DNA of 64,000 nucleotides from Natrinema sp. CBA1119. GTDB lineage: Archaea > Halobacteriota > Halobacteria > Halobacteriales > Natrialbaceae. The position numbers were made by a program, and so were the translations under genes. Below the pieces are notes generated by a model. The model was not told the DNA's origin, searched no databases, and saw only the letters and a program-made list of their open reading frames with translations. Position 1 is the stretch's first letter. Every line of letters begins with the position of its first letter. The stretch covers positions 2,914,001 to 2,978,000 of the forward strand of contig NZ_PDBS01000001.1 of the NCBI RefSeq assembly GCF_002572525.1. Direction: 5' to 3'. Shown here one piece after another: positions 1,192 to 44,273 of the stretch.

Positions 1192-1316
1192 GGGTCCAGA
1201 ATGGGTTTTTAGATAACAGGATCGGCACTGCCACTATTTCAATCCCGTCTCGGACCCTGATGGGAAATGATGGGGCACACCCATATGGGAGATCGACCAA
1301 GGAGAAGCTGAAATGA
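1188..1316 (+). other. cas6-cas10d spacer: 42-codon ORF with a repeat-like sequence (possible crRNA-like RNA)
   Basis: This is the only long gap inside the cas operon. A 42-codon frame fills it exactly: its ATG overlaps the cas6 stop and its TGA overlaps the cas10d start, so it could couple translation of both neighbours. On the minus strand, 1253-1236 reads CCGAGACGGGATTGAAAT, close to the 3' half of the CRISPR repeat (CCCAGAACGGGATTGAAAC) with the crRNA handle almost intact. In haloarchaeal type I-B loci, crRNA-like RNAs (CreA of CreTA, and CreR autorepressors) are encoded beside cas genes; this is a candidate for such an RNA. The predicted peptide resembles nothing known to me. Confidence 0.4.
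1236..1253 (-). ncRNA. degenerate CRISPR repeat half (psi-repeat)
   Basis: Read on the minus strand, the 18 bases end in GGGATTGAAAT, matching the array repeat end GGGATTGAAAC except for the last base. The sequence after it (AGTGGCAGTGCCGATCC) would be the guide if the RNA is loaded like a crRNA. There is no second repeat copy within the 122-bp gap, so processing at the other end is unclear. Confidence 0.4.
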
Positions 1317-3781: not shown

Positions 3782-3800
3782 TCCTATTCACTGATCCACA

Positions 3801-4742: not shown

Positions 4743-5436
4743 GCAGACGTACGAGGCACAGCTGTACGCTCCGCTGTTCTACTCGAGCGCGGAGGGGAGG
4801 TCCGTCCGGACACAGCCGATGCTATCCGCGACCGCACTTATGCACGCGATCGGCTACCGGTACTGCGGCCTCGAGAAGCGGTACGCACTCGTTGGCGACG
4901 ACGCGACATCTCCTTCGTACGATCACCTCCGCGAGCTACCGCTATTCGTGAGCGACATGCGCCCAGTCGCTGTCAAGGCCGATGAACGGACGTTTCGGAG
5001 TACCGACTACCGCTCCGAACGGCACTTCACGACGGCGGATCCGAACGTTGCCGAACAGGTGACCGGTGGGAAGTCAGTCCCGGAGGTTCTCGAACGCTCG
5101 GGTGCCGGCTGGCAGACCATCCGCCGATATCACGGCCTCTCACCCGGATCAAAATTTGAATTCACCGTCTGGAGTGACGAGCCCCTTCCAGAGCGGCCGT
5201 CGTTTCGAATGGGTATCGGACAAACGGGGGAGTTCCGCGCGAGCGAAACCGACCTCAACCAGCTCGTACTGAACGAGTTCCTCCTTGAGGAAGTCTACGA
5301 CCTCCCGACGGAGACGCTCAGCGAACTCTTGGAGCGGAGCGACTCGTTCAAGCGCGGTAACGATCCTCGACTCCAGCACTTCGTCGGCGTCGATCCGAAG
5401 TACGCACGTGAGACGATCATCCCGGAGCTGAGCTAG
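4735..5436 (+). CDS. csc1: Csc1 (Cas5), type I-D subunit
   Basis: Csc1 is the Cas5 of type I-D and caps the 5' handle of the crRNA. The protein is about 233 aa. Its N-terminus (YEAQLYAPLFYSSAEGRSV) has the Cas5 strand-plus-loop arrangement, followed by PMLSATALMHAIGYRY. I prefer the ATG at 4735 over the in-frame GTG at 4729; either overlaps csc2 by a few bases. The stop touches the cas3' ATG at 5437. Assignment rests largely on position and size, supported by the N-terminal pattern. Confidence 0.75.
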   Translation: MIEQTYEAQLYAPLFYSSAEGRSVRTQPMLSATALMHAIGYRYCGLEKRYALVGDDATSPSYDHLRELPLFVSDMRPVAVKADERTFRSTDYRSERHFTTADPNVAEQVTGGKSVPEVLERSGAGWQTIRRYHGLSPGSKFEFTVWSDEPLPERPSFRMGIGQTGEFRASETDLNQLVLNEFLLEEVYDLPTETLSELLERSDSFKRGNDPRLQHFVGVDPKYARETIIPELS

Positions 5437-8085: not shown

Positions 8086-9360
8086 GTCGCAGGGCGGTAG
8101 AAACCCAGAACGGGATTGAAACATCATCTCTGGTCTCAACTCTCTGGGTCCCATGAAATGTCGCAGGGCGGTAGAAACCCAGAACGGGATTGAAACCGTT
8201 TGCAGTCCCTCCGACGTTGCACTGCGTCCACGGGTCGCAGGGCGGTAGAAACCCAGAACGGGATTGAAACGACTCGGTGGAATGCTCGAGTCGTCCATGT
8301 CCAAAGACGTCGCAGGGCGGTAGAAACCCAGAACGGGATTGAAACACGTAGGTGATGCTATGGGTGACGTTGCTCAGAAGTCGCAGGGCGGTAGAAACCC
8401 AGAACGGGATTGAAACCGACCTCGAGATAATCCCGCCCGGTGATGAAGTTACGTCGCAGGGCGGTAGAAACCCAGAACGGGATTGAAACAATATCACCGA
8501 CGCACCACAGGATTTCGCCGATGGGAGTCGCAGGGCGGTAGAAACCCAGAACGGGATTGAAACAGGACGTGACGCCGACTTAGTTCCTGAGTCAATTCCG
8601 TCGCAGGGCGGTAGAAACCCAGAACGGGATTGAAACAACCGGACTCGGTGGAACTCTCGGAAGCCGAACGCGTCGCAGGGCGGTAGAAACCCAGAACGGG
8701 ATTGAAACTTCGTGGTACAGTCCGAGTCGCCGCATCACGCGGTGTCGCAGGGCGGTAGAAACCCAGAACGGGATTGAAACAACGGTGAAGACCTGTCGAA
8801 ACGCGGGAAGCTCGCGTCGCAGGGCGGTAGAAACCCAGAACGGGATTGAAACATCGGGTGCCGTGGCATCGGCTCCAGGAGGCGCTCGTCGCAGGGCGGT
8901 AGAAACCCAGAACGGGATTGAAACTCAGGTAATCCTCACTGGATGGGAACCCGGGGTACTGTCGCAGGCTGGTAGAAACCCAGAACGGGATTGAAACTGT
9001 TGCCGCCAGTCCTCCAGCAGCATGTACTTGAAGTCGCAGGGCGGTAGAAACCCAGAACGGGATTGAAACTGGCAAGAAGATATCGTGAATGAACGGGCTG
9101 ACGGGGTCGCAGGGCGGTAGAAACCCAGAGCGGGATTGAAACTGGCAAGAAGATATCGTGAATGAACGGGCTGACGGGGTCGCAGGGCGGTAGAAACCCA
9201 GAGCGGGATTGAAACTGGCAAGAAGATATCGTGAATGAACGGGCTGACGGGGTCGCAGGGCGGTAGAAACCCAGAACGGGATTGAAACACGAAGTCGCCG
9301 GCCCCGTAGCGACTAGTGTTCCCGTCGCAAGGCGGTAGAAACCCAGAACGGGATTGAAGC
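8086..9360 (+). CRISPR. type I-D CRISPR array, 18 repeats of 37 bp, 17 spacers
   Basis: Repeats begin GTCGCAGGGCGGTAG and end ACGGGATTGAAAC. They start at 8086, 8160, 8234, 8309, 8380, 8453, 8527, 8600, 8672, 8744, 8816, 8888, 8961, 9033, 9106, 9179, 9252 and 9324. Spacers are 34-38 bp. Repeat 13 has CTGG for GCGG; repeats 15 and 16 share an AGAGCGG variant; the last repeat is degenerate (GCAAGG, end GAAGC), which marks the old end. Spacers 14, 15 and 16 are identical (TGGCAAGAAGATATCGTGAA...), leaving 15 different spacers. Spacers 3 and 8 share GACTCGGTGGAA plus further bases. Long peptide frames across the array are artefacts of the repeat. Confidence 0.98.
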
Positions 9361-9371
9361 CTGGCAAACTA

Positions 9372-9421
9372 GTCTACAGGCGGAGCAGGCCGAGTGCCTC
9401 GGGGCTTGACCCCGAGAGTGA
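9372..9421 (+). repeat. 50-nt inverted repeat, left copy
   Basis: This stretch (GTCTACAGGCGGAGCAGGCC...) matches the reverse complement of 12721-12770 at 46 of 50 positions. It contains CTCGGGGCTTGACCCCGAG, the hairpin typical of haloarchaeal IS200/IS605 ends. It starts 11 bp after the last CRISPR repeat and leads into a tnpA 3' remnant. Confidence 0.75.
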
Positions 9422-15111: not shown

Positions 15112-16364
15112 CTGGCTTGCCGGGCCGGCTGGACCTGGATGCGGCGGACGTGACGCCGGACGTGCCGGTTGCGGAGCTCACGACAACCACACGGCGTGCG
15201 GAGACACGAGCGGTGATGGCGGTCGTCGCTGAACTTCGAGCACATGGTGTTCCTGTCCGGGATATCGTCGTAGTCGCGCGTGACCTAGAGAGGTATGAGG
15301 AGCCGCTCACTCGAGCGGCTGTTCGATACGGTATTACGCCGGTGTTTTGGACGCAGATCGACCTTGTCACATCGCGGCCGTACCGGCTGGTGATCGCGCT
15401 TTGTGAACTGATTGCTGCGTCGAACCCGGCTCGTGATGTTCTGTTCCGGCCGTTGGAACTCGGGTGGGTGCCGCAGGATTCGGGTGACGAATGGCCGGTT
15501 CCGGCCGAGACAGTGGTGGAGCTGTATCATGAGACACCGTGTGGATCACGCTCGGTCGAAGCATGGCAGTCGCTTCTACAAGATGCAGCGTGGGCGGACC
15601 CACGAATCATCGAGTTCGTTGAATGGGTTGTGACGTCTCCGAATCCGTCACCGGAGACCGTCGCTGATGTGCTCGGTGGTGTCGTAGCGTCGTACCGCGA
15701 GTCGGTGTTGCCACAGCAGCAGGCGACGGATTCGCCGGCGTTGTTGGAGACGGAAACGGCTGCGCGTGCGGTCGTCCGGATGGAGACACTCGTCGAGCAG
15801 GTTGAGAGCAAGTATGCACAGCGGGTAGCCGACGGGTGGAGTGACGAATCGTGGGTGACGGTGGCCGGTATCTGCGAGTCGCTAGCGACGCAGCGACCCG
15901 GTCGGCGGGAACACGCAAACGCGCTGGCCCTTGACATTCTGGAAGCAAACGACATTTGGGCCCGGAAGATCCCGTTCGTCATCGCCGTCGGGCTCGTCGA
16001 TGGAGAGTGGCCACGGCAACGAGGAAGTGTTGTGCCGGCAGAGTTTCAACACGCCATCCTTGCCGGGAATGGGCCGGCGAAGCGATTGTCTCCACAGACA
16101 GCGTGGATGGATGGCCGTGACCACGATCACTTCCTGGATACGGTACAGGCAGCCACAACGGGTCTCATTGTCACGCGACACTCACATGACGCCGAGCGGA
16201 ACCGACAGTTTCGGTCACCGTTACTCGACTCCCTCGACGTCGAACCCATCAGCACTGCTGCGCGCCGCCGACTCCTGAGCACTGAACGGGCGTTGCCGGA
16301 CGTGATTCGGTCGATGCTACCCGGTGAGGCGTCAGCGTCCATGGGGGTGATGCCCGATGACTGA
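15108..16364 (+). CDS. AddB/RexB-like protein, C-terminal part
   Basis: The 418-aa protein opens with MTGLPGRLDLDAADVTPDVP and has helicase domain 2 features: RRAETRAVMAVVAELRAHGV, RDIVVVARDLERYEEPLTRA and FVIAVGLVDGEWPRQRGSVV (the AddB/RecC-type GLVEGxxP segment). No RecB-like nuclease motif or iron-sulfur cysteines are seen at the end, unlike bacterial AddB. The start ATG is inside the previous stop and its own end overlaps the addA-like gene by 8 bp. Confidence 0.6.
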   Translation: MTGLPGRLDLDAADVTPDVPVAELTTTTRRAETRAVMAVVAELRAHGVPVRDIVVVARDLERYEEPLTRAAVRYGITPVFWTQIDLVTSRPYRLVIALCELIAASNPARDVLFRPLELGWVPQDSGDEWPVPAETVVELYHETPCGSRSVEAWQSLLQDAAWADPRIIEFVEWVVTSPNPSPETVADVLGGVVASYRESVLPQQQATDSPALLETETAARAVVRMETLVEQVESKYAQRVADGWSDESWVTVAGICESLATQRPGRREHANALALDILEANDIWARKIPFVIAVGLVDGEWPRQRGSVVPAEFQHAILAGNGPAKRLSPQTAWMDGRDHDHFLDTVQAATTGLIVTRHSHDAERNRQFRSPLLDSLDVEPISTAARRRLLSTERALPDVIRSMLPGEASASMGVMPDD

Positions 16365-19300
16365 CTCGACGGGGAAAGCCGGTGATCCAACTGAACGCGA
16401 GGGCCCGATCGTCCTTCGGAACGCACAACGACGGATTCGGAACGCATACTTTGACCATGATTCCGGGCTGTTCATCTTGGATTCGAACCCGGGAGTGGGG
16501 AAGACGGTGACAAAGACTGATATCGGGGCTGAGGAACTCTTGCGACGGTTTGTCAATGGTGATGAGACGCCTGAGCAATCGCTCTGCGTGATCTCGTTCA
16601 ATCGGGATGAAGCAGCTGCCTTTGTTCCCGACTTCACTGCACGACTTCGTGAACTCGTCGAACACGACATGACACCGGCTGCGGCGGCTGTCTCAGACGA
16701 TGAGCGACAGTATCTTGCTAACCGGGTCCGGCGCGCGCCGCATTTTGGAACAATCGATAGCGTGTTCCGGCAGATTCTGGGGGAGTTCGCGGCGACGGTC
16801 GGATTCGGTGAGATGCCGAGCGTTGGGAACGAGGGGCAACTTACCCGCCTGCACGGAGACTGTTACGAGGCGCTCGTGTCGAATCCGGCATATGCGGAGG
16901 CCGTCGACGTCGTTGACTCTGCGTACCCGCCGGGTGAGTACGACGATGGACTGAGTGCGTTGTTACGCCAGGCTCTCGAGCAGTGTCGGGCCCGTCGTCT
17001 GACGACGGCGGAGTTCACTGCGGAACTCCACGCGACGATTGAGGCAGTGTATGCGGAAGGGGAGACGACGTCGTTTGATGATATCGCTGCTGCGCTTGCC
17101 AGGTGTGTTGGGTCTCAAGCGGCGACAGAGGCTTGCAAGGCGCTTGATGAGACTGACCGTGAGCAGCTGGTTGCCGCCGACCAACAGCTGCAGGCGGCGT
17201 GGAGAGAGACGGTGACTGCGTTCGGGACGCTTCTGGACGCCTACCGGAACGCGTACGAGACACGGAGTCGGGAGCGCGGCGTCATTTCTCATACGGACTG
17301 TGCGTTCCTGGTCGCTGAGTTCCTCTCCGGGGCCCGCGGTACCGGTGACAGCGCAACTGCGAAACGGGAGCGGGTGCTGGCGCGATACCGGGAGCGCATC
17401 GAGAGTGTCATTATCGATGAGGCGCAGGATGTGTCTGAACTGCAACACGCGGCGCTTGCGCAACTCGTGGGTGAGGATTGCCGCGTGCTTGCAGTTGGAG
17501 ACCTTCAGCAAACGATCTACGAGTGGCGTGATGCACACCCGTCGCTTTTCAACCGCGCTGTCGAGGAGGGGCAGTATCTGGGTGTCGACTGGGAGACACA
17601 CGTGACTGAGACAGCAGCGACGACGTACCGGTGTACGCCTGACATCGCCGCTGCGATTAACGCGATTGCTGAACCGGCACTCACTGACCCAGACCGCGGG
17701 GGTATCGGCAACCTCGACGTCGCGTACACACCGCTTGACACTGCACGCGACGCGACCGCTGGGCCGAGCGTCCATGTCGCAGCGTTCACGACCGATGCAC
17801 GTCCTGGATCACCGGCCTATGTCGCCCCTGAGAGGGGGAAAGGGGAAGCCGGGATTTTGGCGACCTATATCGCTACTGGGCTTGCCGACGGCACGCTCAC
17901 CGATAGCGAGAGCGATGACCAGCCCGATGTGACTATCCTGTTCCGGTGGCGCACACACATGTCACGGTACGCTGATGCATTCGAGGCGGAAGGCCTCTCC
18001 GTTGCAAACGCCTCCAACTACCTCTTCGAATGCCCTGTTGTCAAGACTGTCCTCGACGTCGCTGAGTGGCTCGTCGATCCCGCCGATATGGACCGACTAC
18101 AGACACTCGTCACTGATACTCCACTCGGTCTCTCCACCCGTACAGATACCTGCAACACGGCTACCTGGAGTCTCGATGCGATCCGCGACGACACCGAGAC
18201 CGCCGACCAGCAACGGGATGTCCGTGACCGACTCGCCCACCTCCGAGAGAAGCGACCCGCATTCCGGGCGCAGTCGGCCGCTGCCAGTATCGCCGACATT
18301 ATCGAGATACTCGCTCTTCGTGCTGATCCGAACGACAACTTCACCGCCGTTGCTCCATCACAACGCATCGCCAACCTAGACGCACTCGTCCAGCTCATCA
18401 CCCGCTGGGAAGGCGACTCGATAGCCGATCTGAGCGACGTCATCGATGTGTTCACTCCAGTTCGGAACGAACCATATACTGGGCCAACACAACCGGTGAC
18501 CACCACCGATGAGCACGACGTCGTATTTAAGACGGTGCATCAGGCGAAAGGCGACGAAAGCGACGTTGTCGCACTCGCAGATCTTGGCTGGCCACTCCGC
18601 AAACTCGGTCCAACCAGCCAGCGCTTCGTCGCTACCGGGCCGATGCTTGGCCTCGCACCGCCAGTGAACGCCGCTGCACCGGACATCAACCCCCTCTCCG
18701 CGTTCACGCGTGGTCTCTATGACCCACGTACCGATGATCGCGTCGGCTCGACACCCTTTCCCATCGACGTCGGCCTTCGATGGGCAAGCGAACACTGGGC
18801 AGACACCGTCACCACCGATCACTCGAGCACGGGACTTGCCGGGCATGACCGCGTTCAAACAGCATCCCGGCGTACCCGCGCCGAGGCATTCCGGATCCTG
18901 TTCGTAGCCCTCTCCCGTGCCAAACAACATCTCGTTGTTCCGCTTCCCCGCGACATACCTGGCCCCGAACACCCACGGGATCGATGGCTCGAAACCATCC
19001 GTGACGGGCTGCAGTTCGACGGGACACCTGCTGCCGGCACGTACACCCTCGACGTCGAAGGTCCGAACGAGTCCACTCGGTGCATCGACGTCGCCGTCAA
19101 TGCTGTCGACACATCCGCAAGCCAGGCAACCCATGCCCACTCAGCCACGCCGACACCGTTCGTCGTATCAACACCGCCAGACAGAGACGACCTCGCAGCG
19201 CTCGTACCACGATTCCTCCAGCCCAGCACAATCCACCCGCTCCTAGAAGACCAGGATCGATATCTCCTTGATCATCTACAGGGCCGGCCACTTCACACGG

Positions 19301-19929
19301 ACACAGACGCTGTAGACGGCGAGTTACCACTCACCCTCACCGCGTTCGACACCGAAGACGTCGGGAAACTCTGCCACAGCGTCCTCACCCGCTGTGTCGA
19401 TCGGGGCATGTCGAAAACAGCCATCCGCACGCAGGGTGGCGATATCGAACAAATCATTGCAGAGGAACTCCACCGCCATGGGCCACCCGCGAACGAAGCT
19501 GAACGCGACGGTCTGATCGAGTTCCTCACCGAGTTCGTCCTCCCCAACTTCCTCGCCTCAGAGCTGTGGAGCCAGTTAGAACAAGCAGCCGAAATCTATG
19601 TCGAAAAGCGACTTCGCGGTCACGTCAGACGTGATGACGTCGAATTCGAAATCGAAGGGCAGGCAGACGTCGTGATGCAGAACCCGGACGGGTCATGGGT
19701 GATCACCGACATCAAAATCGCACTCACAGAGCTGACCACCGAGACACAACGCCGCTACCGAACACAAATATCATGGTACGCCTCACTCCTCGCCGCCGAA
19801 AACAGCGTGGAGGGACCAATCACCTGCGCCATTGAGACATTCGGCGCAGTCACCAACCGACGCGACTCACAGATACCGCTCCCAGCGGTGCAACAACGGC
19901 TAGACAAACTACTCAACGGAGGCATGTGA
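16357..19929 (+). CDS. AddA-like UvrD helicase with C-terminal RecB-type nuclease
   Basis: The 1190-aa protein has Walker A SNPGVGKT (43-50), DEAQD (about 354), a TYRCTPDI segment, VFKTVHQAKGDESDVV (motif V) and RILFVALSRAKQHLVV (motif VI). The C-terminal nuclease shows EGQADVVMQNPDGSWVITDI (about 1100-1120) then K and QISWYASLLAAE, the D...DxK...QxxxY signature of RecB-family PD-(D/E)XK enzymes. This is an AddA layout: a single processive helicase-nuclease that resects double-strand ends. It is the last gene of the coupled operon. Either DNA repair or destruction of invading DNA would fit. Confidence 0.82.
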   Translation: MTDSTGKAGDPTEREGPIVLRNAQRRIRNAYFDHDSGLFILDSNPGVGKTVTKTDIGAEELLRRFVNGDETPEQSLCVISFNRDEAAAFVPDFTARLRELVEHDMTPAAAAVSDDERQYLANRVRRAPHFGTIDSVFRQILGEFAATVGFGEMPSVGNEGQLTRLHGDCYEALVSNPAYAEAVDVVDSAYPPGEYDDGLSALLRQALEQCRARRLTTAEFTAELHATIEAVYAEGETTSFDDIAAALARCVGSQAATEACKALDETDREQLVAADQQLQAAWRETVTAFGTLLDAYRNAYETRSRERGVISHTDCAFLVAEFLSGARGTGDSATAKRERVLARYRERIESVIIDEAQDVSELQHAALAQLVGEDCRVLAVGDLQQTIYEWRDAHPSLFNRAVEEGQYLGVDWETHVTETAATTYRCTPDIAAAINAIAEPALTDPDRGGIGNLDVAYTPLDTARDATAGPSVHVAAFTTDARPGSPAYVAPERGKGEAGILATYIATGLADGTLTDSESDDQPDVTILFRWRTHMSRYADAFEAEGLSVANASNYLFECPVVKTVLDVAEWLVDPADMDRLQTLVTDTPLGLSTRTDTCNTATWSLDAIRDDTETADQQRDVRDRLAHLREKRPAFRAQSAAASIADIIEILALRADPNDNFTAVAPSQRIANLDALVQLITRWEGDSIADLSDVIDVFTPVRNEPYTGPTQPVTTTDEHDVVFKTVHQAKGDESDVVALADLGWPLRKLGPTSQRFVATGPMLGLAPPVNAAAPDINPLSAFTRGLYDPRTDDRVGSTPFPIDVGLRWASEHWADTVTTDHSSTGLAGHDRVQTASRRTRAEAFRILFVALSRAKQHLVVPLPRDIPGPEHPRDRWLETIRDGLQFDGTPAAGTYTLDVEGPNESTRCIDVAVNAVDTSASQATHAHSATPTPFVVSTPPDRDDLAALVPRFLQPSTIHPLLEDQDRYLLDHLQGRPLHTDTDAVDGELPLTLTAFDTEDVGKLCHSVLTRCVDRGMSKTAIRTQGGDIEQIIAEELHRHGPPANEAERDGLIEFLTEFVLPNFLASELWSQLEQAAEIYVEKRLRGHVRRDDVEFEIEGQADVVMQNPDGSWVITDIKIALTELTTETQRRYRTQISWYASLLAAENSVEGPITCAIETFGAVTNRRDSQIPLPAVQQRLDKLLNGGM

Positions 19930-27510: not shown

Positions 27511-27601
27511 CTCCGCAATCCACCGCCGATGGCAAGGCCGGATATTCCACCGGTAAACGACCACGGGTCGGGTGACCCGTGGCTTTTCTAATTCCCTCAG
27601 C

Positions 27602-28918
27602 CTACGTCGTAAGCACTCCACGCGAAGCGATTTCGCGGGATGAGGATGGGCGATTTACAGAGCGCCCCGACCCAGACAGGCTCACCTTCCGAACAAATGG
27701 TTGGGTTTTGCGAGTCCGGTAATTAATCGATTCAACGTCTATGCCAGCGTGTTTCGCCCACGCTCGCCACGCTACATTCACGCTCGCGTTTCGGTCAGCG
27801 TGGTCTTGCTGAACCTCGCACGAATCATTCGTACAGTGGAACCGCCGACCTTGGCGGTAGCCACGGTGTCCACAGCACGAACACGACTTCGAGTTGTAGC
27901 AACTGTCTACCGTGTCCGTGGGGATCTCGTTCCACGTCGCCTTGTACGAGACGAATTTCTCGAACTTGTGGAACGGTAGTTTGTGCAGTCTACGGTTCAT
28001 GTATGTACCGTATTTGATCTCGTCGCGGATACCTTCCATATCCTCGAACACGATGACTGGGTTCGAGAACTGTTGGGCGAACTCCACCACGATTCGGGAC
28101 ATTCGGTGGAGAATCCACTCGGTGTAGCGTTCTTCTTTCTCCCCGAGTTGGTGGTGGATGGAGTATTGGCCGTGTTCTTGACAGCGTTTGGTGATGGTGT
28201 GGTAGCGTTGGCGTTCGGCTTTCACCGAGCCGTAGTCAAGCACGAGTGTTCCGAGAGTGTCCATCGTCTCACGATTAAGAGCGGTGAGGGCGATGTTGCG
28301 CTCATTAATATCTACGCCGACGAGTGTGTCAGCGTCTTCTGGTTCAGGCACTTCAACCTCTGTTTTGACCGTGACATGTAGGTAGTACACGCCATCTCGG
28401 TACAAAAGTTCGGCCTGCCCCAACGACCACTCGTCATCCGTTAAGGCCGACTCGATGTGATTGAGGTCTTCCGGTCGCCCTCGAAGGTGTCCTTTCACCT
28501 TCTTGTACGGCTTCGGACTCACACGGAACTGAACGCGGTCGTCCTCTTCGTTGTAGGTGAGTCGATAACCTTCGGTGTGCGCCATAACGAGTGGGTATGC
28601 TCCCTTCTTGTCCGTGGCGGGTGGCGACGGTTTCCCGGCGTTGGTGTCGTCTTGGTCGTGCCACCAATTGAGGAGTTCTTTGTAGGAGTCCCACGCTTGC
28701 AGGGCTTTCCCGACGACTGCACACTTGTTGTTCCGCAGGAAGTCATCGCGGTCAACTTCCTTCTGAATCTCAGTGCGAGAGTAGCCTTGTTGCTTGAGTT
28801 CGAGAGTGTCGTTGGAGATGTCTCGTGCGGTGAAGCGGGCATCTTTGAGCCACGACCGCTCACCAGACTCTATGCAGAGTCGGGTGCGTGCGGTCTTCGT
28901 GACTTCTTCGATACCCAT
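27602..28918 (-). CDS. tnpB: TnpB, RNA-guided endonuclease of IS605
   Basis: The 438-aa protein is complete. RuvC residues: Asp in LVGVDINERNIALTAL, Glu in VIVFEDMEGIRDEI, and Asp in QQDHADRNASVNVA; zinc knuckle CSCCGH and CTNDSC. In active TnpB, an omega RNA from the element's right end guides cutting at the donor site. All key residues are present, so it may be active. Confidence 0.88.
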   Translation of the reverse strand: MGIEEVTKTARTRLCIESGERSWLKDARFTARDISNDTLELKQQGYSRTEIQKEVDRDDFLRNNKCAVVGKALQAWDSYKELLNWWHDQDDTNAGKPSPPATDKKGAYPLVMAHTEGYRLTYNEEDDRVQFRVSPKPYKKVKGHLRGRPEDLNHIESALTDDEWSLGQAELLYRDGVYYLHVTVKTEVEVPEPEDADTLVGVDINERNIALTALNRETMDTLGTLVLDYGSVKAERQRYHTITKRCQEHGQYSIHHQLGEKEERYTEWILHRMSRIVVEFAQQFSNPVIVFEDMEGIRDEIKYGTYMNRRLHKLPFHKFEKFVSYKATWNEIPTDTVDSCYNSKSCSCCGHRGYRQGRRFHCTNDSCEVQQDHADRNASVNVAWRAWAKHAGIDVESINYRTRKTQPFVRKVSLSGSGRSVNRPSSSREIASRGVLTT

Positions 28919-29360: not shown

Positions 29361-29612
29361 TCGAGCGTACGCGATTCACCCACGGGTCAGGTGACCCGTG
29401 GAACTCTCGCTGTTTCCTTTAGAAAGTGACGCGCCGGCTGAGATGGTAGCTGGCGTGACCTCAGCGATCCGTGGTGGGTTCGCCACTGAAAATGGTGTTT
29501 TACCGACATATCTTAAGGAATACGGTCCGAATCGGGATTGTATGAGTAGGAGTCCTATGGAAGAAACTACGGGGATTGGTTCTGAGGTAACTGACGAAGT
29601 AGTCGTACTATC

Positions 29613-30434
29613 TTAGCGAAATTGTTCTTTGAGTTCGGACGGGTTATACGTATATATCGGTGGACGTTCGAAGCGGGTATCCGGTATTAAGTACGGTATC
29701 TGAAGGCGGTCAAGAACACCGGTAAGATGTTGCATACCGACGACGGCAACCACGGTGTCGACGGTGTCCATTTGGTAGAGTTCGTGCAGATGCCCTGCCA
29801 TCGCATCGTCACGGATTGTTATGACTTGGTTGAAGAGATCTGGTATTCGCAGTTGTGTTCTTTCGCGCCACTTGCGGATCGTGGGGAGATCCAACAAGTG
29901 GTAGCTGTCAGATGTGAGGTCACTCGGTGTATCAATCACTCCAAGCTCAGAGAGAACGTCAGCGTCTACCTTTGCAAATCGTTCCTTCCCGTCCAGCGGC
30001 CACTCCCAGTGAGGAAGGTCAATTCCTGCAATCGAGAGTGAATCATTGTGTCTGGCGGCGTATCCCGCAGCTTCCAGTTCGTGCTCTGGTGGCCAATCTA
30101 GTTCATATTGGTCTGGATGGTGCTGGAAAATTGCTTCTCGACTGGCTTCCACGGCGACGATATCTGGGTTGAATTGGATAATCGCGGTTGTGAGACGTTC
30201 AATCGTTTTTGGGTGCCCGTGCAGGATTCCGAGAACATGAATGCCTTCAATTCGCCCACCGAGGGAGTACTCTGGAACACCAGTTGGATAGAGTGGTTTG
30301 TGGCTAGTGGCTTCGAAGAAATCATCGGATGGAAGATCTGCTGCCGGTTTTTTCACTGGGGTTGTCGTTTCGATCACTTGACCAACACCGTCCGAGGGAG
30401 AACGGCTGGTTGTATGCTGTTTTTGGTACATCAA
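29613..30434 (-). CDS. TraB/Tiki-superfamily protein
   Basis: The 273-aa protein has the TraB/PrgY pattern: VLGILHGHPKTIERLTTAII with a GxxH-type motif, DIVAVEASREAIFQ with the conserved Glu, and VVAVVGMQHLTGVLDRL near the end (second GxxH). In this superfamily these residues form a metalloprotease-like site; PrgY blocks pheromone signalling in enterococci. Unlike typical archaeal TraB proteins, no membrane helices follow. The function here is unknown. Confidence 0.6.
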   Translation of the reverse strand: MMYQKQHTTSRSPSDGVGQVIETTTPVKKPAADLPSDDFFEATSHKPLYPTGVPEYSLGGRIEGIHVLGILHGHPKTIERLTTAIIQFNPDIVAVEASREAIFQHHPDQYELDWPPEHELEAAGYAARHNDSLSIAGIDLPHWEWPLDGKERFAKVDADVLSELGVIDTPSDLTSDSYHLLDLPTIRKWRERTQLRIPDLFNQVITIRDDAMAGHLHELYQMDTVDTVVAVVGMQHLTGVLDRLQIPYLIPDTRFERPPIYTYNPSELKEQFR

Positions 30435-30504
30435 ATTAAGTGGGCGGACGTAATGTGGCTAGGGGTAGTTTCCGTTCAGTATCCGTCTAAGCGATTGTGA
30501 GTCG

Positions 30505-30939
30505 TTAATACGGTGTGTATTGGGGGTCAACGTCGTGGAGGTGGACGCTGCTGACTTGTTCGGGGTCAACAACGAATTCTGTGCCAGTTTCCTCGGAGTG
30601 TTCGTGTAAGTCAATGAGCCGGTAGATGGCGTTACCGTACCACCCGCAGTCGCATCGGGCAGTTGCGTGAGCGCCATTCGACGTGTCGAGTGAGACTTCA
30701 GTTAGCTCGAGTTTGTCGTGACAGACCGGGCATTCGTCTGGGATCGCGGCGTATGCGTGCCCGTTGATGCAACGGAGGTCGTCCGGATTGATTCCCTCCG
30801 TGGAGAGTACGTCTCTAATAGCATCTCCGAGTTCGATGGCAAGGTTCGCTCGCGCTTCTTCGTCATTCGGAAGATCAGATCCTTCGATGTGGATGGTTAA
30901 ACGGTCTCCGCTCGGTGAATTACTTGATCGCATACCCAA
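30505..30939 (-). CDS. hypothetical protein with zinc ribbon (144 aa)
   Basis: The protein has CPVCHDKLEL and ARCDCGW, with CINGH further upstream, so four or five cysteines could bind one zinc. The N-terminus (LTIHIEGSDLPNDEEARANL) and the rest show no known domain. It is separated by about 70 bp from the TraB-family gene on the same strand. Confidence 0.5.
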   Translation of the reverse strand: MGMRSSNSPSGDRLTIHIEGSDLPNDEEARANLAIELGDAIRDVLSTEGINPDDLRCINGHAYAAIPDECPVCHDKLELTEVSLDTSNGAHATARCDCGWYGNAIYRLIDLHEHSEETGTEFVVDPEQVSSVHLHDVDPQYTPY

Positions 30940-31226
30940 TTTTTGAACGGATGATATTTAAAACTCTGCCTCTCAGAGAACTATAACCTCTGTAAGCAGC
31001 CGATACACTGGGTTTGCGGGTTTTTCGTGCCAAAAATAGAATTGGAGATTGTTTCAGATAGAGTATAGTGATCGTAACGGCTGACGCAGGCAGTTATTGC
31101 AATGAAATCTCCGGAATCGGTAGGAGGCGACCACTCCCAGAATGAGCTGCCATGGAGACCATGTACTAGATCTCTTCACGAGGTTGGAGTGAATGTTAGA
31201 AATCCGTCGTAAGCGGACAAGAAATA
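30940..31226. other. intergenic, no gene seen
   Basis: AT-rich DNA at 30945-30975 (GATATTTAAAACTC) is a likely TATA region for the 144-aa gene. The rest shows no recognisable gene or repeat. Confidence 0.4.
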
Positions 31227-34118
31227 TTATCGGATATCCTTCTCAATTGCGTTGTGTTTCAGGTTTCGAATAATTTCAATGGCTGTGATGCCTGGCTCAT
31301 CTGGGTTGATGTCGGCGGGGGATGTCGTGTCTGAGTAGGTGGCGCCGGAGTAGTCAATACGGCTGGCTGCGGCTTGGGTTGCAAGATCGTCGAAGAGGTT
31401 TGTAGCTGCTGTACTATTGGGAACAACCCACCGAGCGGTGTCTGGATCAGCAGTACAGAGCTTCCGATAAGTCTCGACGACGGAATCGTTTTGATCACTG
31501 TTTTCACGTTCAGCTTCCGTTGCGTGGATGATGTTCCCATCCGTATCGAGGACTGCAACGTCAATGTTTTTCGTCACGGTCTCGCCATCAGGGGTCGTGA
31601 CTTCGATCGGGACGTACGTCTCAACGTGAAGGGTCGGATCGTCTTCGAAGCGTGCTTTGTAATCAAGTTCGCTTCCACGAACCATCGTGTAATGCTCGAG
31701 GGTGTCGTTAAGTTCCCGAATTCCCGGTCCGTATTCCTGCCCTTGTTTCCAGGGCTCGTTGATGTGACGGCGGCCTGCGGGCGTTACTGTGTAGAGGACG
31801 TGGGGATCGGTATCCTCGGTGATATACCCGTGTTGCTTCAGCAGGTCGATGTCAGCCGGTGCGAGATCGTAGTCATCGCGGAGTTTCGTTCCGCTATCTC
31901 GAAGCGGGTCGTATTCGAAGTAATGATCGACTTGTTGGGTTTCGACGAGGTACAGCCCTTTCAGGAATTTGAAGTGGTTGAGGCTGAGATCGCTTTCTTC
32001 GATGTCTTCTGCTGTGACTTTCAGCGCAGGGTCTGGCATGCGCCGCAGCGCGTCTCGGTCAACCTCGTCGAGTGACTCACAGCACGTAATCGCTGCGCGT
32101 AGCCCATCCGTAGTCGCGTCACGAAGCGACGCATTCTCTCCATCGTCGGGGAAACACTGCATGCACTTGTAACACTGCCGCGTGTCATCGTACTCGATTG
32201 CTGGCGGTAACGCGGTGCGACGCGGGATATGCGTCCGCTCACGAATTGATCCGCCCGTAGACGCTGACAGACCTGTGTACGAGGGGACTTGCGTGTTCAC
32301 GCCTGGATCAGGAACGTCAACCGTTGCAAAACTCGATAGGACGTGCTCAAGTGCGTCCTGTTGATGTGGGTATGACTTCGTTTCCGTCGGTGCTGGCGTT
32401 GCGTCTGTTTGAGCGAGTTTGCGAACCGGAAGGATGAATGGCGCCCAGTCGCGCAGGTCGAGACGGGTGTTCCACAGTGCGTCTGACCCGTTCGTCGTGA
32501 TTTCCTTGGCAAGGGTGCAATCCGAGTCTGAAAGCCGGTTATCCAGAACGAACGATGCGGACTGGCCGTCGTTGGCCGCCATGACGATATCTGCGCTTTG
32601 ACTGATCGAGTCCCAAAGGCTACGATTCGATTCTGCAACAGCGTACGTCGTTGCGACATCGATTGCGAGACGGTGCTCACTGGTCTTTCGAAGTGCACGC
32701 TCAACGATGTCTTGGTGAGCGTTCGTTGCGGAGAGAAGCTGTGGCGTGAGTGCGAACACGTTGCCAGTACAGTCTGGCGCTGTGTCGCCGAGTCCATAGC
32801 CGGCGTTGCTGAGTTCCGAGAGCAGCAAGGCAGTGCTTTCATCGGCGCAGTGTGTAAGTGACTCATGGTCAGACAGGTCGATCAGATAGAGCGTTGCCGG
32901 TCCCGTAAGCATCTCTTTGAACCACGGGCGAAGCTCGGCAATCCGGTCTTCCGTGAGGAACGGCGAAAGCGCGTTACCCGTAATCCGTTCGGGCACCATG
33001 ATATCATCTACAGACGAGTCTTCCCTGTAGAAATGACAGTAGAGGTATGCGCAGTACGTGATGACGGTGTTGCTTGTCGAGAGCACGAACGTGGGCCGGT
33101 TAGATCGCAACGCGCTCACAACCGTGTTCTCGACGTGAAACAGTGTCTCTGGTGATGCAACGCGAAGCACCGATGCAGGTAGATCAGGTACGCCGAGTCC
33201 CAGGCGTGATTTCAACTGTCTGTCGGCACGAAACGTTGATTCACTGCCGATAGCCCACTTCGAGTCTAGGAGCGCGGAGATCTTGTCCGTTGGCCCGTTC
33301 TCGAGACCGCTTACTGTGCCGCCAATCCCGGATCGTAGTGACGATTTACGGGCTGGCGGGTAGATGAACCCTCTCGCGTAATTAAATGGCGGATCAAATG
33401 ATCCCCCATCTTTCAGTAACGCATGCCGGAAACACACGCTGAACTCCTTGTCAGTTCGTTCAACAGGGTGTAACCAGTACAAGGGATGTGTGGGACCCTG
33501 AGCGTCGGGGTTAGTGATCGGAGAGAGATCACAGTCTTGTGCCGGGTTTCGGGATGTGGTGTCGAGCAGGACCCGGATCGTCATGCCACTGCTACTGGAA
33601 CACAGCAGTTGAATGGCCCACTGCGTATTCGTTCGGTCGAGTGTCTGAATCAGCGCGACAAGTCCAGCGCTCGGTGCAACCGAGGGATACGGATCAGACT
33701 GCGAGCCAGTCGTGGACGGACCGTGGTCTCGTGGGAGTAGTTCGAGTAGCGTGCCTGACTCTGGCGGGCACACATGCTCTTCAAATAGCGTCTCGGGTGT
33801 CCAGTACGGGTCAGCCGTCAGGTCTGTGTAGTCGAACGCAGTTGTGAACGATGCTTCAGCGCCAGTCTTGTGCTCGCGTTCGTTTGGGTGCGGGGCGAGA
33901 TACGACGGTCGATACACAAGATCGTCATCGACGGTCCGGTATACCAGCAGCTCGAAGGGTGCATACGTGATGTTGCGGTCAGCGTCGAAATACGCCAGGC
34001 TTGGCAGCGATCCGAGAAGCTCTCGAAATGGTTTCTCAATTACTCCATCGAGCGTCGTAACTCGCGGAACTGATGTGAACGTCCCGCGGCGGGCTCGCGG
34101 TGGTGTCTTCTTACTCAT
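31227..34118 (-). CDS. large paralogue B: zinc knuckle, winged helix, nuclease-like end
   Basis: This 963-aa protein is unknown to me. Visible blocks: an N-terminal beta-rich part (YAPFELLVYR; WAIQLLCSSSSGMTIRVLLD) similar in layout to HAS-barrel regions of HerA/VirB4 ATPases; a central ATPase-like stretch without Walker A; CYKCMQC at about 640 plus ITCC about 25 residues later; a winged helix (VDHYFEYDPLRDSGTKLRDD...); and a C-terminal NIDVAVLDTDGNIIHATEAE, which has the spacing of a PD-(D/E)XK site. The start MSKKTPPRARRG overlaps the upstream gene by 8 bp. It pairs with its paralogue at 34111-37185. Confidence 0.55.
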   Translation of the reverse strand: MSKKTPPRARRGTFTSVPRVTTLDGVIEKPFRELLGSLPSLAYFDADRNITYAPFELLVYRTVDDDLVYRPSYLAPHPNEREHKTGAEASFTTAFDYTDLTADPYWTPETLFEEHVCPPESGTLLELLPRDHGPSTTGSQSDPYPSVAPSAGLVALIQTLDRTNTQWAIQLLCSSSSGMTIRVLLDTTSRNPAQDCDLSPITNPDAQGPTHPLYWLHPVERTDKEFSVCFRHALLKDGGSFDPPFNYARGFIYPPARKSSLRSGIGGTVSGLENGPTDKISALLDSKWAIGSESTFRADRQLKSRLGLGVPDLPASVLRVASPETLFHVENTVVSALRSNRPTFVLSTSNTVITYCAYLYCHFYREDSSVDDIMVPERITGNALSPFLTEDRIAELRPWFKEMLTGPATLYLIDLSDHESLTHCADESTALLLSELSNAGYGLGDTAPDCTGNVFALTPQLLSATNAHQDIVERALRKTSEHRLAIDVATTYAVAESNRSLWDSISQSADIVMAANDGQSASFVLDNRLSDSDCTLAKEITTNGSDALWNTRLDLRDWAPFILPVRKLAQTDATPAPTETKSYPHQQDALEHVLSSFATVDVPDPGVNTQVPSYTGLSASTGGSIRERTHIPRRTALPPAIEYDDTRQCYKCMQCFPDDGENASLRDATTDGLRAAITCCESLDEVDRDALRRMPDPALKVTAEDIEESDLSLNHFKFLKGLYLVETQQVDHYFEYDPLRDSGTKLRDDYDLAPADIDLLKQHGYITEDTDPHVLYTVTPAGRRHINEPWKQGQEYGPGIRELNDTLEHYTMVRGSELDYKARFEDDPTLHVETYVPIEVTTPDGETVTKNIDVAVLDTDGNIIHATEAERENSDQNDSVVETYRKLCTADPDTARWVVPNSTAATNLFDDLATQAAASRIDYSGATYSDTTSPADINPDEPGITAIEIIRNLKHNAIEKDIR

Positions 34119-37100
34119 CTGTCTCACCGCCGAAGCGCAGCACAAACGTATCTCCCTGTCCGATCCACGCGGGCTCAATCGTATCAACACAATGCTTGAT
34201 CGTGTTTACATCAGTGAGGCCAGGCTCGTCGAAATTGAAATACTGGACGCGGGCAGTATCTGGATCCTTCTCGGTATCTGCGTTGAACGTGACACGGCCA
34301 GCAGCGGCTGCCGCGGTGAGTTCGTTTACGAGAGCGACCGCATCTGCTTGTGTCCACGCAACCCACTGTGCAGTGTCTGGCTTCGCAGCAGCTAGTGTTT
34401 GGTACGTGATCACTGTCTCATCGTCGTACGCTTCCGTCTCCGACGCGGCAGGCGCCTGATCAACAGCTGATGTAGCGTCTGTTTCCGGTGTGTATAGACC
34501 ACACCCCGCAACGAGCGTACTGTCGTCAGCCTGGACAACGATGTCGAGCGTTGCCCGACTTGGATGGCGCGAATCGGTCGCTGCCACGTCGTACGGCAGA
34601 TCGGTTTTGACTTGCGCTGACGATTCGGCGTACTGGTCGGTCATGTATAACTTGACGGCGCGCCGTAACCGCCGCTCGAACATCGAGTGGAACTGTTCGT
34701 TGTCCTGTGCTTCGGTCTGCCCGATTGCCTCGAGTCCACGGTCGGTCAGTGAGTAGAGTTTCGATGGGTTATTCGTCCGGACGATGTAGTCGTCCTCAAC
34801 TAACCGTGTTTCTGTCTGGTACGAAATTCCGACGTCGTCACGGATATCAACACCGCTATCGACGACCGGGTCGTATTCGACTGCGTAATCGAACTGCCCT
34901 GTCTGCAACACGTACAGTACGGCCAAGAACCGGTACTCCTCTTCGGATAGTTCGTGAGCAGTATCCTCGAGTAACGCACTCGGGACAACTGGTTCAGGGA
35001 CGTGCCGCACTGCTTCTCGCTCGATCTCCTCGATAGTATGACAGCAGTTAATCGCCTTGAACAGCCCTTGCTTGCTACGCTCGTACACGGACGCGTCAGT
35101 CTCCGTATCTGCCCGGCACGCCTGACAGACATATCCGTTTTGACCGTGATCGTACTCGACCGGGAGATCTGCATGTGTTCGAGGCACGTGTCGCCGCTCG
35201 ATCGTGACCGTGTTAGGGTCGGCCGTGGTACTTGATGTCTCGCCAGTCGAAGCCGATCCAGCCGAGTCTGTCTGTACTGCCGGCTCAGGTGACGCCCCAG
35301 CGGTTCGCTCTGGGCGTGACATCGTGTACTCGGTGTCAGTCGGTACGGTTCGGTCAAATCCAGTGACCGTTGTGAGTCGAGAGAGTGGAATCGCAACCGG
35401 CGGATCACTCGATGAATGAGGTCGGACGTACGTATTCCAATCACTATCCTCGTTCCGGTCTTTGATCTCGAGTGGCGTCAGCCCGGGTACTGTTGGCAGG
35501 CGGTCATGCTGATAGAGGCGATCCACTGGACCGCCGTTTTGCAACATGCTGAGATCCATAACCTGCGCGATCCTCGCAAGTTGATCGTACGCAGACTGTC
35601 GACGGGCAGTATCTAACCGGTCCCAGTCAGTCACGATCGTCCCGACTTCGACCTCCGGGTAGAGCGTATGCAGGGTCAACAGGAGTTCGGCGTTATCGAC
35701 GCGTTGCAACGCGGTTTCGAGTCGGGTTTGCGCATCGGCTGTCGGCGCAAGCGGCCATGGCGCGGCGAACACTACTGAGCCGACGGGGGCACTGCATGAT
35801 TGCGATGGTGTTACAGCCGCACCTGCCTGTGTGAGCTGTGAGAGTAGTGTTGTCGCAGCAGCTGCCGGGTCATCGAGTTGAGAAACGTCTAACAGGGTCA
35901 ATGATGGCGTCTCATCGAGGCGATCAGTGAAAAACGACACGTCATCCGCCATTTCAACCATCGGTTCGATGCGGTCACTGCCAACGTACTCAATCTCGCC
36001 TGTCGGAACGTCCAATGACGTTGTCCCTGACTGCAGCGCCGTGTACGTTTCCCCGTACCGCTTGAGTACGCCCGGCAGTGTTGAAATCGCAAACATCGGC
36101 GCGCCGGCCATACTGAGTGCTTGGACGTCCGTCGGCGCAGTCACCTGCAGTCCTTGTGGCTCAGCCCCTACTTTCAGCACGCGCCCCATTGTCCCGGACA
36201 GCCCTAACACCGCTCGTTTGGAAAACGAACCGGCAGGTGGCAACGGTTCGACTCCGACAGGGACTGTCGGCTTGATCAGCCGATCAACAGCATTGGCCGG
36301 ACAGTGTTCGAGCGGCGATGCAGTCCCGGGAACACCGCAGAACAGCGATGTCGTTCGAGACGGTGGGAAAAGTAGCCCGCGGGCATACGCTGACGGTGCA
36401 ACGAACGATGATGAAGGCTGGAATCGCGCAGCCAAGGTATCAGTGATGAATTCGGGATCCGAGACGTAGTTCCGGAGGCGAAGTTTTGTCGCTGTCGGCG
36501 GCTGCGCAAGCGCAAAATCCGAGGACTCTAATCGCTGTTGGAAGTCAGCTCCGGCAGCCGGGATCAGCACCATCCGAATCTGGACTGACAGCATGCCAGC
36601 CGCATCGGCTGTCAATGGAAGTTCACGGGTCCCGTTCCACGGACATGCAAGCACCTGGACCAGCCATGTCCCAATCTCCGGCCGTTGTTGCTGGGCTGCC
36701 TGGATTCGTTGCAGCAACTGCACCACCACGTCCCCTGCCGACACTGCAGGGTACTGCGGGACGTGGGTCGAGTACTTAACCGGTGGCCTTACTCGCGTCG
36801 TGAACGCGTCCGCTGGTATCCCATCGAACAGTGCGTCGAGCTCGGCCGATCGCGCGTTGACGGACTTCACAGCATAATTCTCCTGAAGGACATCCCGCAA
36901 CGCGACCGTGTTCGACTCTGTGATCGCTGTAGATGTCGAAAACAGGTAGGTTACCTGTCCGTCCGGCTGCTGGTAGGCGAGCAGTTCAAGCGGAGCAGTA
37001 ACTGGCTTGCTAGTCTCGTCGGTCAACGTCGCCGACTGCACTGTCTGCAGTGCTATACTGAGCGGCGATCGTTCGGTCTCACCAGTGCCATGGGTGAGGT

Positions 37101-37185
37101 CAACACGCGCGTTCCATGGCTGTAACTGGAAGTGCGTACGGCGCTGGCGTTCGGTCCAATCCGTCGAAGTGAGGTCTTGTGACAT
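34111..37185 (-). CDS. large paralogue A: zinc knuckle, winged helix, degenerate end
   Basis: The 1024-aa protein is the first gene of the pair and aligns with paralogue B along its length: WLVQVLACPWNG at the barrel, YARGLLFPPSRTTSLF (YARGFIYPPARKSSL in B), YVCQACRADTE with INCC, FDYAVEYDPVVDSGVDIRDD, and VITYQTLAAAKPDTAQWVAW. In the putative nuclease site the Asp strand remains (TLDIVVQADD) but the EAE of B is GCG here, so A may be catalytically dead. No Walker A. It is translated with B through an overlap. Confidence 0.55.
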   Translation of the reverse strand: MSQDLTSTDWTERQRRTHFQLQPWNARVDLTHGTGETERSPLSIALQTVQSATLTDETSKPVTAPLELLAYQQPDGQVTYLFSTSTAITESNTVALRDVLQENYAVKSVNARSAELDALFDGIPADAFTTRVRPPVKYSTHVPQYPAVSAGDVVVQLLQRIQAAQQQRPEIGTWLVQVLACPWNGTRELPLTADAAGMLSVQIRMVLIPAAGADFQQRLESSDFALAQPPTATKLRLRNYVSDPEFITDTLAARFQPSSSFVAPSAYARGLLFPPSRTTSLFCGVPGTASPLEHCPANAVDRLIKPTVPVGVEPLPPAGSFSKRAVLGLSGTMGRVLKVGAEPQGLQVTAPTDVQALSMAGAPMFAISTLPGVLKRYGETYTALQSGTTSLDVPTGEIEYVGSDRIEPMVEMADDVSFFTDRLDETPSLTLLDVSQLDDPAAAATTLLSQLTQAGAAVTPSQSCSAPVGSVVFAAPWPLAPTADAQTRLETALQRVDNAELLLTLHTLYPEVEVGTIVTDWDRLDTARRQSAYDQLARIAQVMDLSMLQNGGPVDRLYQHDRLPTVPGLTPLEIKDRNEDSDWNTYVRPHSSSDPPVAIPLSRLTTVTGFDRTVPTDTEYTMSRPERTAGASPEPAVQTDSAGSASTGETSSTTADPNTVTIERRHVPRTHADLPVEYDHGQNGYVCQACRADTETDASVYERSKQGLFKAINCCHTIEEIEREAVRHVPEPVVPSALLEDTAHELSEEEYRFLAVLYVLQTGQFDYAVEYDPVVDSGVDIRDDVGISYQTETRLVEDDYIVRTNNPSKLYSLTDRGLEAIGQTEAQDNEQFHSMFERRLRRAVKLYMTDQYAESSAQVKTDLPYDVAATDSRHPSRATLDIVVQADDSTLVAGCGLYTPETDATSAVDQAPAASETEAYDDETVITYQTLAAAKPDTAQWVAWTQADAVALVNELTAAAAAGRVTFNADTEKDPDTARVQYFNFDEPGLTDVNTIKHCVDTIEPAWIGQGDTFVLRFGGETDE

Positions 37186-42769: not shown

Positions 42770-43060
42770 CGCACCACCACGTACCGCGCAGCTCCGTGCC
42801 CCGCGGGGTGACTCGACCATTCTCTCGATGGTCGCCTGGCCGCCGTTCGGGGACCCCCGGCGGTCGTGCCGTTCCTTCCTGCGGGAGTAGCCGGTGACAA
42901 CAATGACGGCTTGGTCCCTCATCCCTACGACGACGTGGTGGGGTTGGGTAGACTGCCTTTCCCATGCACCCTACCCGGAAACCCCAATTTGAGAATTGAA
43001 GACCAATTACCGAGGACTGCACAGGTTCAAATCCTGTCGGTGGCCCGTCCATCGAGAACA
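42770..43060 (+). other. hairpin-rich segment with a tRNA T-arm-like element
   Basis: Several hairpins are packed here: CCCCGCGGGG, GACCATTCTCTCGATGGTC (about 42816-42834) and CCGCCG/CGGCGG (about 42841-42864). At 43021-43037, ACAGGTTCAAATCCTGT forms a perfect T-arm (5-bp stem, 7-base loop), followed by CGGTGGC, as at a tRNA 3' end. No matching 5' half is visible. It could be a tRNA remnant, an attachment site or part of a structured RNA. The protein frame across it is not convincing. Confidence 0.45.
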
Positions 43061-43180
43061 TCCTGGACAAAGAGAGCACGAGGGTGCTCTCGACACCGGA
43101 TCCCGCCCCGACAGTTTCCCGGTCACCGTGTCGCCAGTGGTCGTCGAACCGGAGCGATACTTCAATGGCACTCTACGCGT

Positions 43181-44113
43181 GGCGATTTCGACGATTATCC
43201 CGACATCGAACCACTGCCGTCGCCCAACACGTGGGAGACAGTCATCTCCGAACGCGGCAACACCCGGGACGCCTGGAAGATTCTCATCGAGAGCGAGGAG
43301 CACTCGCTGCCGCTCTTCGCGTCAATCCGGAACCTCCGGAACATGCTCGAAGCAGGCGTCGACGAGGACACCGTGGTGGGTCATCTCGACCTGAAGGCGG
43401 TGCAGCACGCGCCGCTGTACCCGTTCCGGTACTACCAAGCGTACACCGCGCTCCAGAATGCTGACGTCCAAGCACCGGCGGTTGAGCAGTGGCTGGAGGA
43501 GACAATCGATGTCGCTGTCGAGACGGTGCCTGACGGAATCGGAGAAACGTTCGTCGCTGTGGACCTCTCAGGATCGATGAACATGGCGCTGTCCAAGAAC
43601 AGCACTCTCCGCCCGAAAGAGATCGGTGCGTTGTTCGGTGTGATCCTAGCCGACCAAGGTGCCGAGGTTAGCGGGTTCGGTGACGACTTCCAGACCGTTC
43701 CGATGCACGTCGACACGCCAGTACTACAGCGGCAAGACGCGGTGCTGGCCATCGACGAGGAAGTCGGGAACTCGACGAACGGCTGGAAGGCACTGGAGTA
43801 TCTCCGCAACCGAGGCGAACCCGTCGAGCGAGTCGTCGTCTTCACCGACATGCAAATCTGGGACAGCACACCATTCACCGCGCGCGATAACCAGACGGTC
43901 AAGGAGGCGTTCGATGCGTATCAGAACGAGGTCTCCACGGACACCTCACTGTATCTCGTCGATCTGACGTCCTACGGCGACCTCGTGACGCCGGAAGGCT
44001 ACGAGAACGTCTACAACGTTTCCGGCTGGTCAGAGAACATCCTCTCGTTCATCGAACACGCCGAAAGCCCGAAGCAAGTCATCGATGAGATCAGCGCGTT
44101 CGAGGCAACATAG
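43181..44113 (+). pseudogene. Ro60/Rsr (TROVE-vWA) gene, 5'-truncated
   Basis: Ro60 is a ring-shaped RNA-binding protein that holds Y RNAs and misfolded RNAs. The frame begins in the late TROVE domain (NTWETVISERGNTRDAWKIL; FASIRNLRNMLEAGVDED; PFRYYQAYTAL) and has the complete vWA domain with MIDAS motif ETFVAVDLSGSMN and VERVVVFTDMQIWDS. About 250 N-terminal residues of the HEAT-like ring are missing. The frame stays open back to 42866, but that part shows no family match and overlaps the hairpin-rich segment. A short functional version cannot be excluded. Confidence 0.72.
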
Positions 44114-44140: not shown

Positions 44141-44213
44141 GCGCGAGTAGTGTAGTTCGGTATCACGCGGTCGTGCCACGACCGAGACAGGCGTTCGAAT
44201 CGCCCCTCGCGCA
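44141..44213 (+). tRNA. tRNA-Gly(GCC) or tRNA-like RNA
   Basis: A cloverleaf can be drawn: acceptor GCGCGAG/CTCGCGC (7 pairs), D-arm GTGTAGTTCGGTATCAC, anticodon stem CGGTC/GACCG with loop GTGCCAC (anticodon GCC at 44175-44177), T-arm GGCG-TTCGAAT-CGCC and discriminator A. The outer T-stem pair is A-C. It lies 27 bp behind the Ro60 remnant on the same strand. In bacteria, Ro60 genes are often beside Y RNAs, some of which mimic tRNA, so both readings should be kept open. Confidence 0.75.
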
Positions 44214-44273
44214 CTCAGAGCGCAGCTCGTGGAACAAACAGCCCGAGCGACGCTCTTCAACAGAGGTAATATC

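Follow-up and report, generated by a model that had tools for sequence, protein, structure and literature searches.

What kind of machine could be formed by two very large proteins encoded by overlapping genes of Natrinema sp. CBA1119, and from what do they descend? Both genes lie on the reverse strand of the window, that is, the whole stretch of 64,000 nucleotides that was analysed. Gene A (34111-37185) encodes 1024 aa, and gene B (31227-34118) encodes 963 aa from its ATG, while its mechanical ORF begins upstream, at GTG 34190, giving the 987 aa of the model numbering. The start of B lies over the stop of A, in an overlap of 8 bases (ATGAGTAA, 34111-34118, reverse strand). The two proteins are co-linear in blastp (27% identity over 898 columns, E 2e-59), an alignment of approximately 900 residues, so that their paralogy is not due to chance, and the two large paralogues of the initial annotation are confirmed in both size and arrangement. 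The GC content at the three codon positions (0.648/0.480/0.613 for A and 0.609/0.464/0.600 for B) is similar to that of other genes of the window, which lies on a contig of 4.09 Mb; the plasmid matches of this genome are haloarchaeal throughout. Neither protein has a credible match in Pfam, PHROGs, NCBIfam or PADLOC, and none of the PADLOC models, which represent known anti-phage defence, matched either protein at E<1.

Among approximately 550 or more distinct haloarchaeal genomes searched, full-length matches to the pair appeared in only one other, that of Halovenus carboxidivorans WSH3. Its B orthologue (1032 aa) shows 34% identity to B over almost the full length and its A orthologue (1015 aa) 36% to A over the C-terminal half, with the gene order and strand of the window and overlapping open frames. 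Two pairs are thus known, in two haloarchaeal families. A solo relative of 1029 aa, which also lacks Walker A and holds an intact D..E.E and K, is encoded in another Halovenus member (G338:C5, L101:5107-8196). No relative was found in the first scan of genome contigs, or in the viral contigs scanned with A, A1 and A2. In a tree of the C-terminal module, the A proteins group together (100/99), as do the B proteins (100/98), with a third group of intact ATPases (see below); the tree has long branches. As A and B form separate clades, either the duplication is older than the split of the two lineages or the genes moved as a pair.

An ATPase-like core without Walker A

AlphaFold2 models of A and B, built with 17-row alignments, reached mean pLDDT values of 56.0 and 55.3, respectively, with weak N-terminal parts and with values mostly around 80-90 for residues 661-940 of B. 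Residues 283-603 of the A model adopt a RecA-like fold which matches VirB4 (Z 11.2), HerA (Z 10.9), the viral packaging NTPase B204 of STIV2 (Z 10.7) and TrwB (Z 10.5), bearing out the HerA/VirB4-type origin and, for A, the ATPase-like middle that had been suggested from the sequence. For B, the model is supportive only, since residues 30-541 match TrwK/VirB4 co-linearly and end to end with a Z of 8.7 but an rmsd of 21. The N-terminal part, initially described as barrel-like, is better accounted for by a VirB4-type N-terminal domain, on weaker evidence than the core. Berberine-bridge-like oxidases (Z 8-9), which lead the VIA rows for the N-terminus of B, were read as sharing a common arrangement of sheets, given the co-linearity with TrwK/VirB4 over the same region. 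Foldseek alone was uninformative for B, its best rows being unrelated oxidases and TIM barrels, and a sequence search of the PDB returned matches to the P-loop region only.

The Z values of these matches are moderate, and the relatives included in the alignments could carry their own fold into the models. For this reason, the loss of motifs is stronger evidence for degeneration than the fold itself. A motif scan found Walker A in none of the five pair and solo proteins, as had been read for A and B, versus all 17 aligned intact ATPases. The place of the lost loop was inferred from the models, on the reverse strand in both genes: in A it corresponds to RVLKVGAEPQGL (36148-36183), between strand 335-340 and helix 343-359, and in B to SVLRVASPETLF (33138-33173), between strand 340-344 and helix 347-362 (987-aa numbering). 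The relatives have LYLEEA as their acidic Walker B-type motif; this is absent from the four pair proteins, which show FALTP, FAAPW, IVGLP and IFAEL at that position of an approximate alignment. With regard to the N-terminal transmembrane helices typical of VirD4/TraG coupling proteins, no 19-residue window exceeds a mean hydropathy of 1.6 in the pair or in the relatives.

The C-terminal module and its nuclease site

A zinc knuckle (CxxC..CC) was recognised in A (35035-35133, reverse strand) and in B (32073-32174, reverse strand) by sequence reading and alignment, in agreement with the initial annotation, and its cysteines are retained in all four pair proteins. The winged helix described there was also recovered, as a MarR-like fold in residues 726-812 of the B model (6pco, Z 7.0; 31767-31988, reverse strand). 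Further downstream, residues 815-985 match DUF820/AF1548-type nucleases with Z values of 6-8 (3ot2, Z 7.7; 1y88, Z 7.1), and residues 831-941 (987-aa numbering) form the alpha-beta-beta-beta-alpha-beta core of PD-(D/E)XK enzymes, mostly at high pLDDT.

In B, the model and the alignment place the catalytic Asp in the strand NIDVAV (residues 851-856, 963-aa numbering; 31551-31568, reverse strand), and the alignment places E-A-E in TEAER (residues 867-871, same numbering; 31506-31520, reverse strand) and a conserved Lys in the next helix, TYRKLC (31455-31472, reverse strand). The motif is therefore E.E rather than E.K, and the D, the E.E and the K of the next helix are common to B, its Halovenus orthologue and the solo protein. 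In A, the E.E is replaced by G-C-G in VAGCGL (residues 892-897; 34495-34512, reverse strand), by direct reading and alignment. Thus, the fold of B and the alignment uphold the earlier reading of D...EAE at PD-(D/E)XK spacing in one protein and GCG in the other.

The active-site alignment was based on a model built without the A proteins and contains 69 distinct rows besides the named pair and solo forms, in which D is found in 69, both E residues in 68 and K in 59. The sole exception, with G, Y and T at the E, E and K columns, is most likely a copy of A, in locus L002. Conservation of the acidic residues among B homologues had been set in advance as a check, and D..E.E indeed occurs without exception in the 68 other relatives, as well as in both B proteins and in the solo form. 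At the aligned columns, A from the window shows D, G, Y and T, so that D is kept while E, E and K are lost; its Halovenus orthologue keeps D without E and K, and direct reading gives GAV where A has GCG. As judged from these residues, B probably has an active site and A a dead one. Since this pattern of kept and lost residues is common to both A proteins and the zinc cysteines remain in all four, the simplest account would be a single loss in the A lineage, followed by retention of A.

The absence of Walker A from both proteins, together with the loss of E.E and K in A, defines the pair as a motor-less, half-dead derivative of an ATPase-nuclease, and this ancestry with its active/dead pattern can be held with high confidence. 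As the ATP site is lost in both and the cutting site is kept in one, the pair probably cuts DNA with one working half, the other being dead. The overlapping genes would allow coupled translation, and the N-terminal and RecA-like parts would hold A and B together. Both would bind DNA through the knuckle and the winged helix, only B would cut, and the complex may either nick DNA or cut one side of a bipartite site, with no ATP-driven translocation. Joint action of A and B as a heteromeric nuclease with one working site is the preferred reading, at about an even chance. A further step, and a tentative one, is that they represent a new nuclease class, obligately heteromeric and ATP-independent. 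It would use two pseudo-ATPases as its assembly scaffold, have one catalytic and one dead nuclease subunit, and nick or restrict invading plasmids or viruses.

The same residues bear on a role in regulation or partition, in which winged helices and knuckles would be the business end of a DNA-binding pair and the nuclease would be vestigial or a rarely used trimming activity. The retention of the knuckle in both proteins is in line with this proposal, as are the genes of ParB-like appearance, judged by eye, at about 2 kb from the solo relative. However, binding alone does not require D, E, E and K, which are nonetheless strictly kept in B and in the solo form, and such a role is regarded as improbable.

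Intact relatives and the setting of the pairs

Nearly all other matches cover only the C-terminal module, at approximately positions 610-1040 of the profile model. They correspond mostly to ORFs of about 1150-1450 aa with a C-terminal module of CxxC..CC, winged helix and D..ExE, and those scanned gave weak matches to DUF87 and TrwB. Genomes with a match to alignment A1 amount to 21/125, 52/146, 55/170, 7/18 and 7/28 in five families (approximately 15-40%), the first two counts including the pair-bearing genomes, and in a phylum-wide sample the 21 genomes with a match all fall in the same order. A profile comparison aligned columns 456-1040 of the pair co-linearly with 732-1281 of the ATPases (E 1.9e-44), which spans the second half of the ATPase core, whereas the N-terminal alignment is weak by sequence. 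The presence of the module on widespread intact haloarchaeal ATPases indicates that the pair is no orphan but a degenerate offshoot within an existing family. A and B would then be duplicated, motor-less descendants of a haloarchaeal DUF87 ATPase (FtsK-HerA/VirD4-like) to which a knuckle, a winged helix and a PD-(D/E)XK nuclease were fused.

Four loci (L094, L095, L096 and L098) combine a shorter ATPase-nuclease, of 807-885 aa, with an ORF of about 430-570 aa that overlaps its start, which suggests a split form. A comparison of 18 loci of intact ATPases showed no neighbours conserved across genera, the best-listed matches lying inside the ATPase gene itself. A more distant version is located between VirB4 and primase genes in pNRC200 and in a Haloarcula litorea plasmid, and adjoins VirB4 in a third plasmid; other plasmid copies lack VirB4 and primase neighbours. 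In pNRC200 (L089:4681-11607), the operon consists of VirB4, an ATPase with a D..E.E C-terminus and a primase, possibly an archaeal transfer module with a built-in nuclease. To our knowledge, the identity of the archaeal enzyme that nicks transferred DNA is unsettled, and these distant versions stand in operons resembling those of type IV secretion.

The relatives next to VirB4 on plasmids also give some ground for a different proposal, that A and B are decoys which join the ATPase-nuclease ring of an incoming element and poison it, while the nuclease of B may cut the DNA of that element. Both proteins retain the N-terminal and RecA-like fold despite the loss of Walker A, and an intact ATPase with the module is absent from both pair-bearing genomes, so that no self-poisoning would occur. 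Nevertheless, an identity of about 20% between the pair and the intact ATPases is low for co-assembly, the absence from two genomes is not significant because intact copies occur in well under half of genomes, and a nuclease that is conserved in B speaks for catalysis. This proposal is considered unlikely.

The window was compared with the 39 kb that surround the Halovenus pair. Besides A and B, the two share only a weak PemK-like ORF match (E 2e-6), a weak helicase-motif match and an antisense frame. Of 28 other genomes of the genus, none contains the DNA beside B (29400-31200), save for a 25-base match in one of them, and the window carries a transposase, tnpB-like genes and a CRISPR-Cas locus of type I-D. 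In the Halovenus genome, a Cdc6 gene lies about 10 kb from the pair. Neither neighbourhood names a process, and the setting of the window fits an accessory, mobile-DNA or defence context, selecting none of them.

Such surroundings raise the question of whether A and B are merely what is left of a plasmid or conjugative element that once integrated, in decay and with no function today. The lost motor, the lost site of A, the long branches, the few occurrences, the transposon-rich DNA and the nearby Cdc6 gene would all agree with decay. Decay is difficult to reconcile with the persistence of both open frames, each about 1000 codons long, in two families at about 35% identity and with unchanged order and overlap, with the retention of all catalytic residues in B and of the zinc cysteines in both, and with a coding-type composition, which make it distinctly unlikely. 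As a DNA cutter, the pair would sit in strain-specific accessory DNA and would most likely target mobile DNA, through either restriction or processing of plasmids; any role in defence or conjugation is putative.

The window holds further features of its own. The type I-D genes (cas6, cas10d, cas7d, cas5d and cas3d) and an 18-unit array occupy 343-7320 and 8086-9382, and within 9033-9251 one spacer, which begins TGGCAAGAAGATATCGTGAATG, is repeated three times. A UvrD-type helicase of 1190 aa with a C-terminal PD-(D/E)XK domain is encoded at 16357-19929, the sense overlapping transcript RNA sot2652 lies at 27539-27723, at the end of a tnpB-like gene, and a TROVE/Ro60-type protein (42866-44113) directly precedes a tRNA-Gly gene (44141-44214).

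Comparison with known systems

Published papers mention haloarchaeal VirB4, VirD4 and HerA genes within integrated elements (PMC9259645), plasmid vesicles with a VirB4/TrwB-like ATPase (PMC10818511) and archaeal 'dark matter' genes that include HerA-like ATPases (PMC4158269). Within the passages of the open full-text literature covered, no description of the pair or of the fused nuclease was found, and that literature yielded no experimental study of the haloarchaeal ATPase family with a fused PD-(D/E)XK domain. No description of an active/dead, motor-less pair was found, while the module itself is part of an existing haloarchaeal family. A clear match to a known family had been named beforehand as evidence against a novel system, and the link that emerged is at the superfamily level only (FtsK-HerA, DUF87). 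If the proposed account is true, loss of the motor and duplication can turn a nuclease-fused, DNA-pumping ATPase into a lasting active/dead pair, which would be a route to a nickase or a half-site nuclease. It also draws attention to the large family of HerA/VirD4-like ATPases in haloarchaea that carry a fused nuclease domain.

The closest known proteins are the haloarchaeal DUF87 or 'ATP-binding' proteins of about 1165-1422 aa (for example, Halarchaeum WP_148040702.1 and Haladaptatus WP_276248593.1), which are co-linear with the pair and have the C-terminal knuckle, winged helix and D..E.E in common with it. They differ in being single unpaired proteins with an intact Walker A and an additional insert that separates the RecA-like halves. 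WP_010904032.1 from the pNRC200 operon shares the winged helix and the D..E.E C-terminus, but it holds an intact STGGGKS loop, belongs to a type IV secretion-like operon and shows no CxxC..CC in the C-terminal part inspected. The fold of residues 283-603 of A is that of the FtsK-HerA superfamily (VirB4/TrwK, HerA and TrwB/VirD4; Z 10-11), from which the pair is set apart by the missing Walker A, the missing long insert and the fused nuclease. The partnerships of HerA with nucleases (NurA, Sir2 and DUF4297) and mad8 of MADS, whose profile matches the intact relatives (E 1.6e-11), likewise combine a HerA-type motor with a nuclease or effector, whereas the pair is motor-less and without a PADLOC model match. 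Finally, DUF820/AF1548-type PD-(D/E)XK nucleases (3ot2, 1y88 and 9y1l) share the fold of the C-terminus of B, but they are small and have no ATPase-like part.
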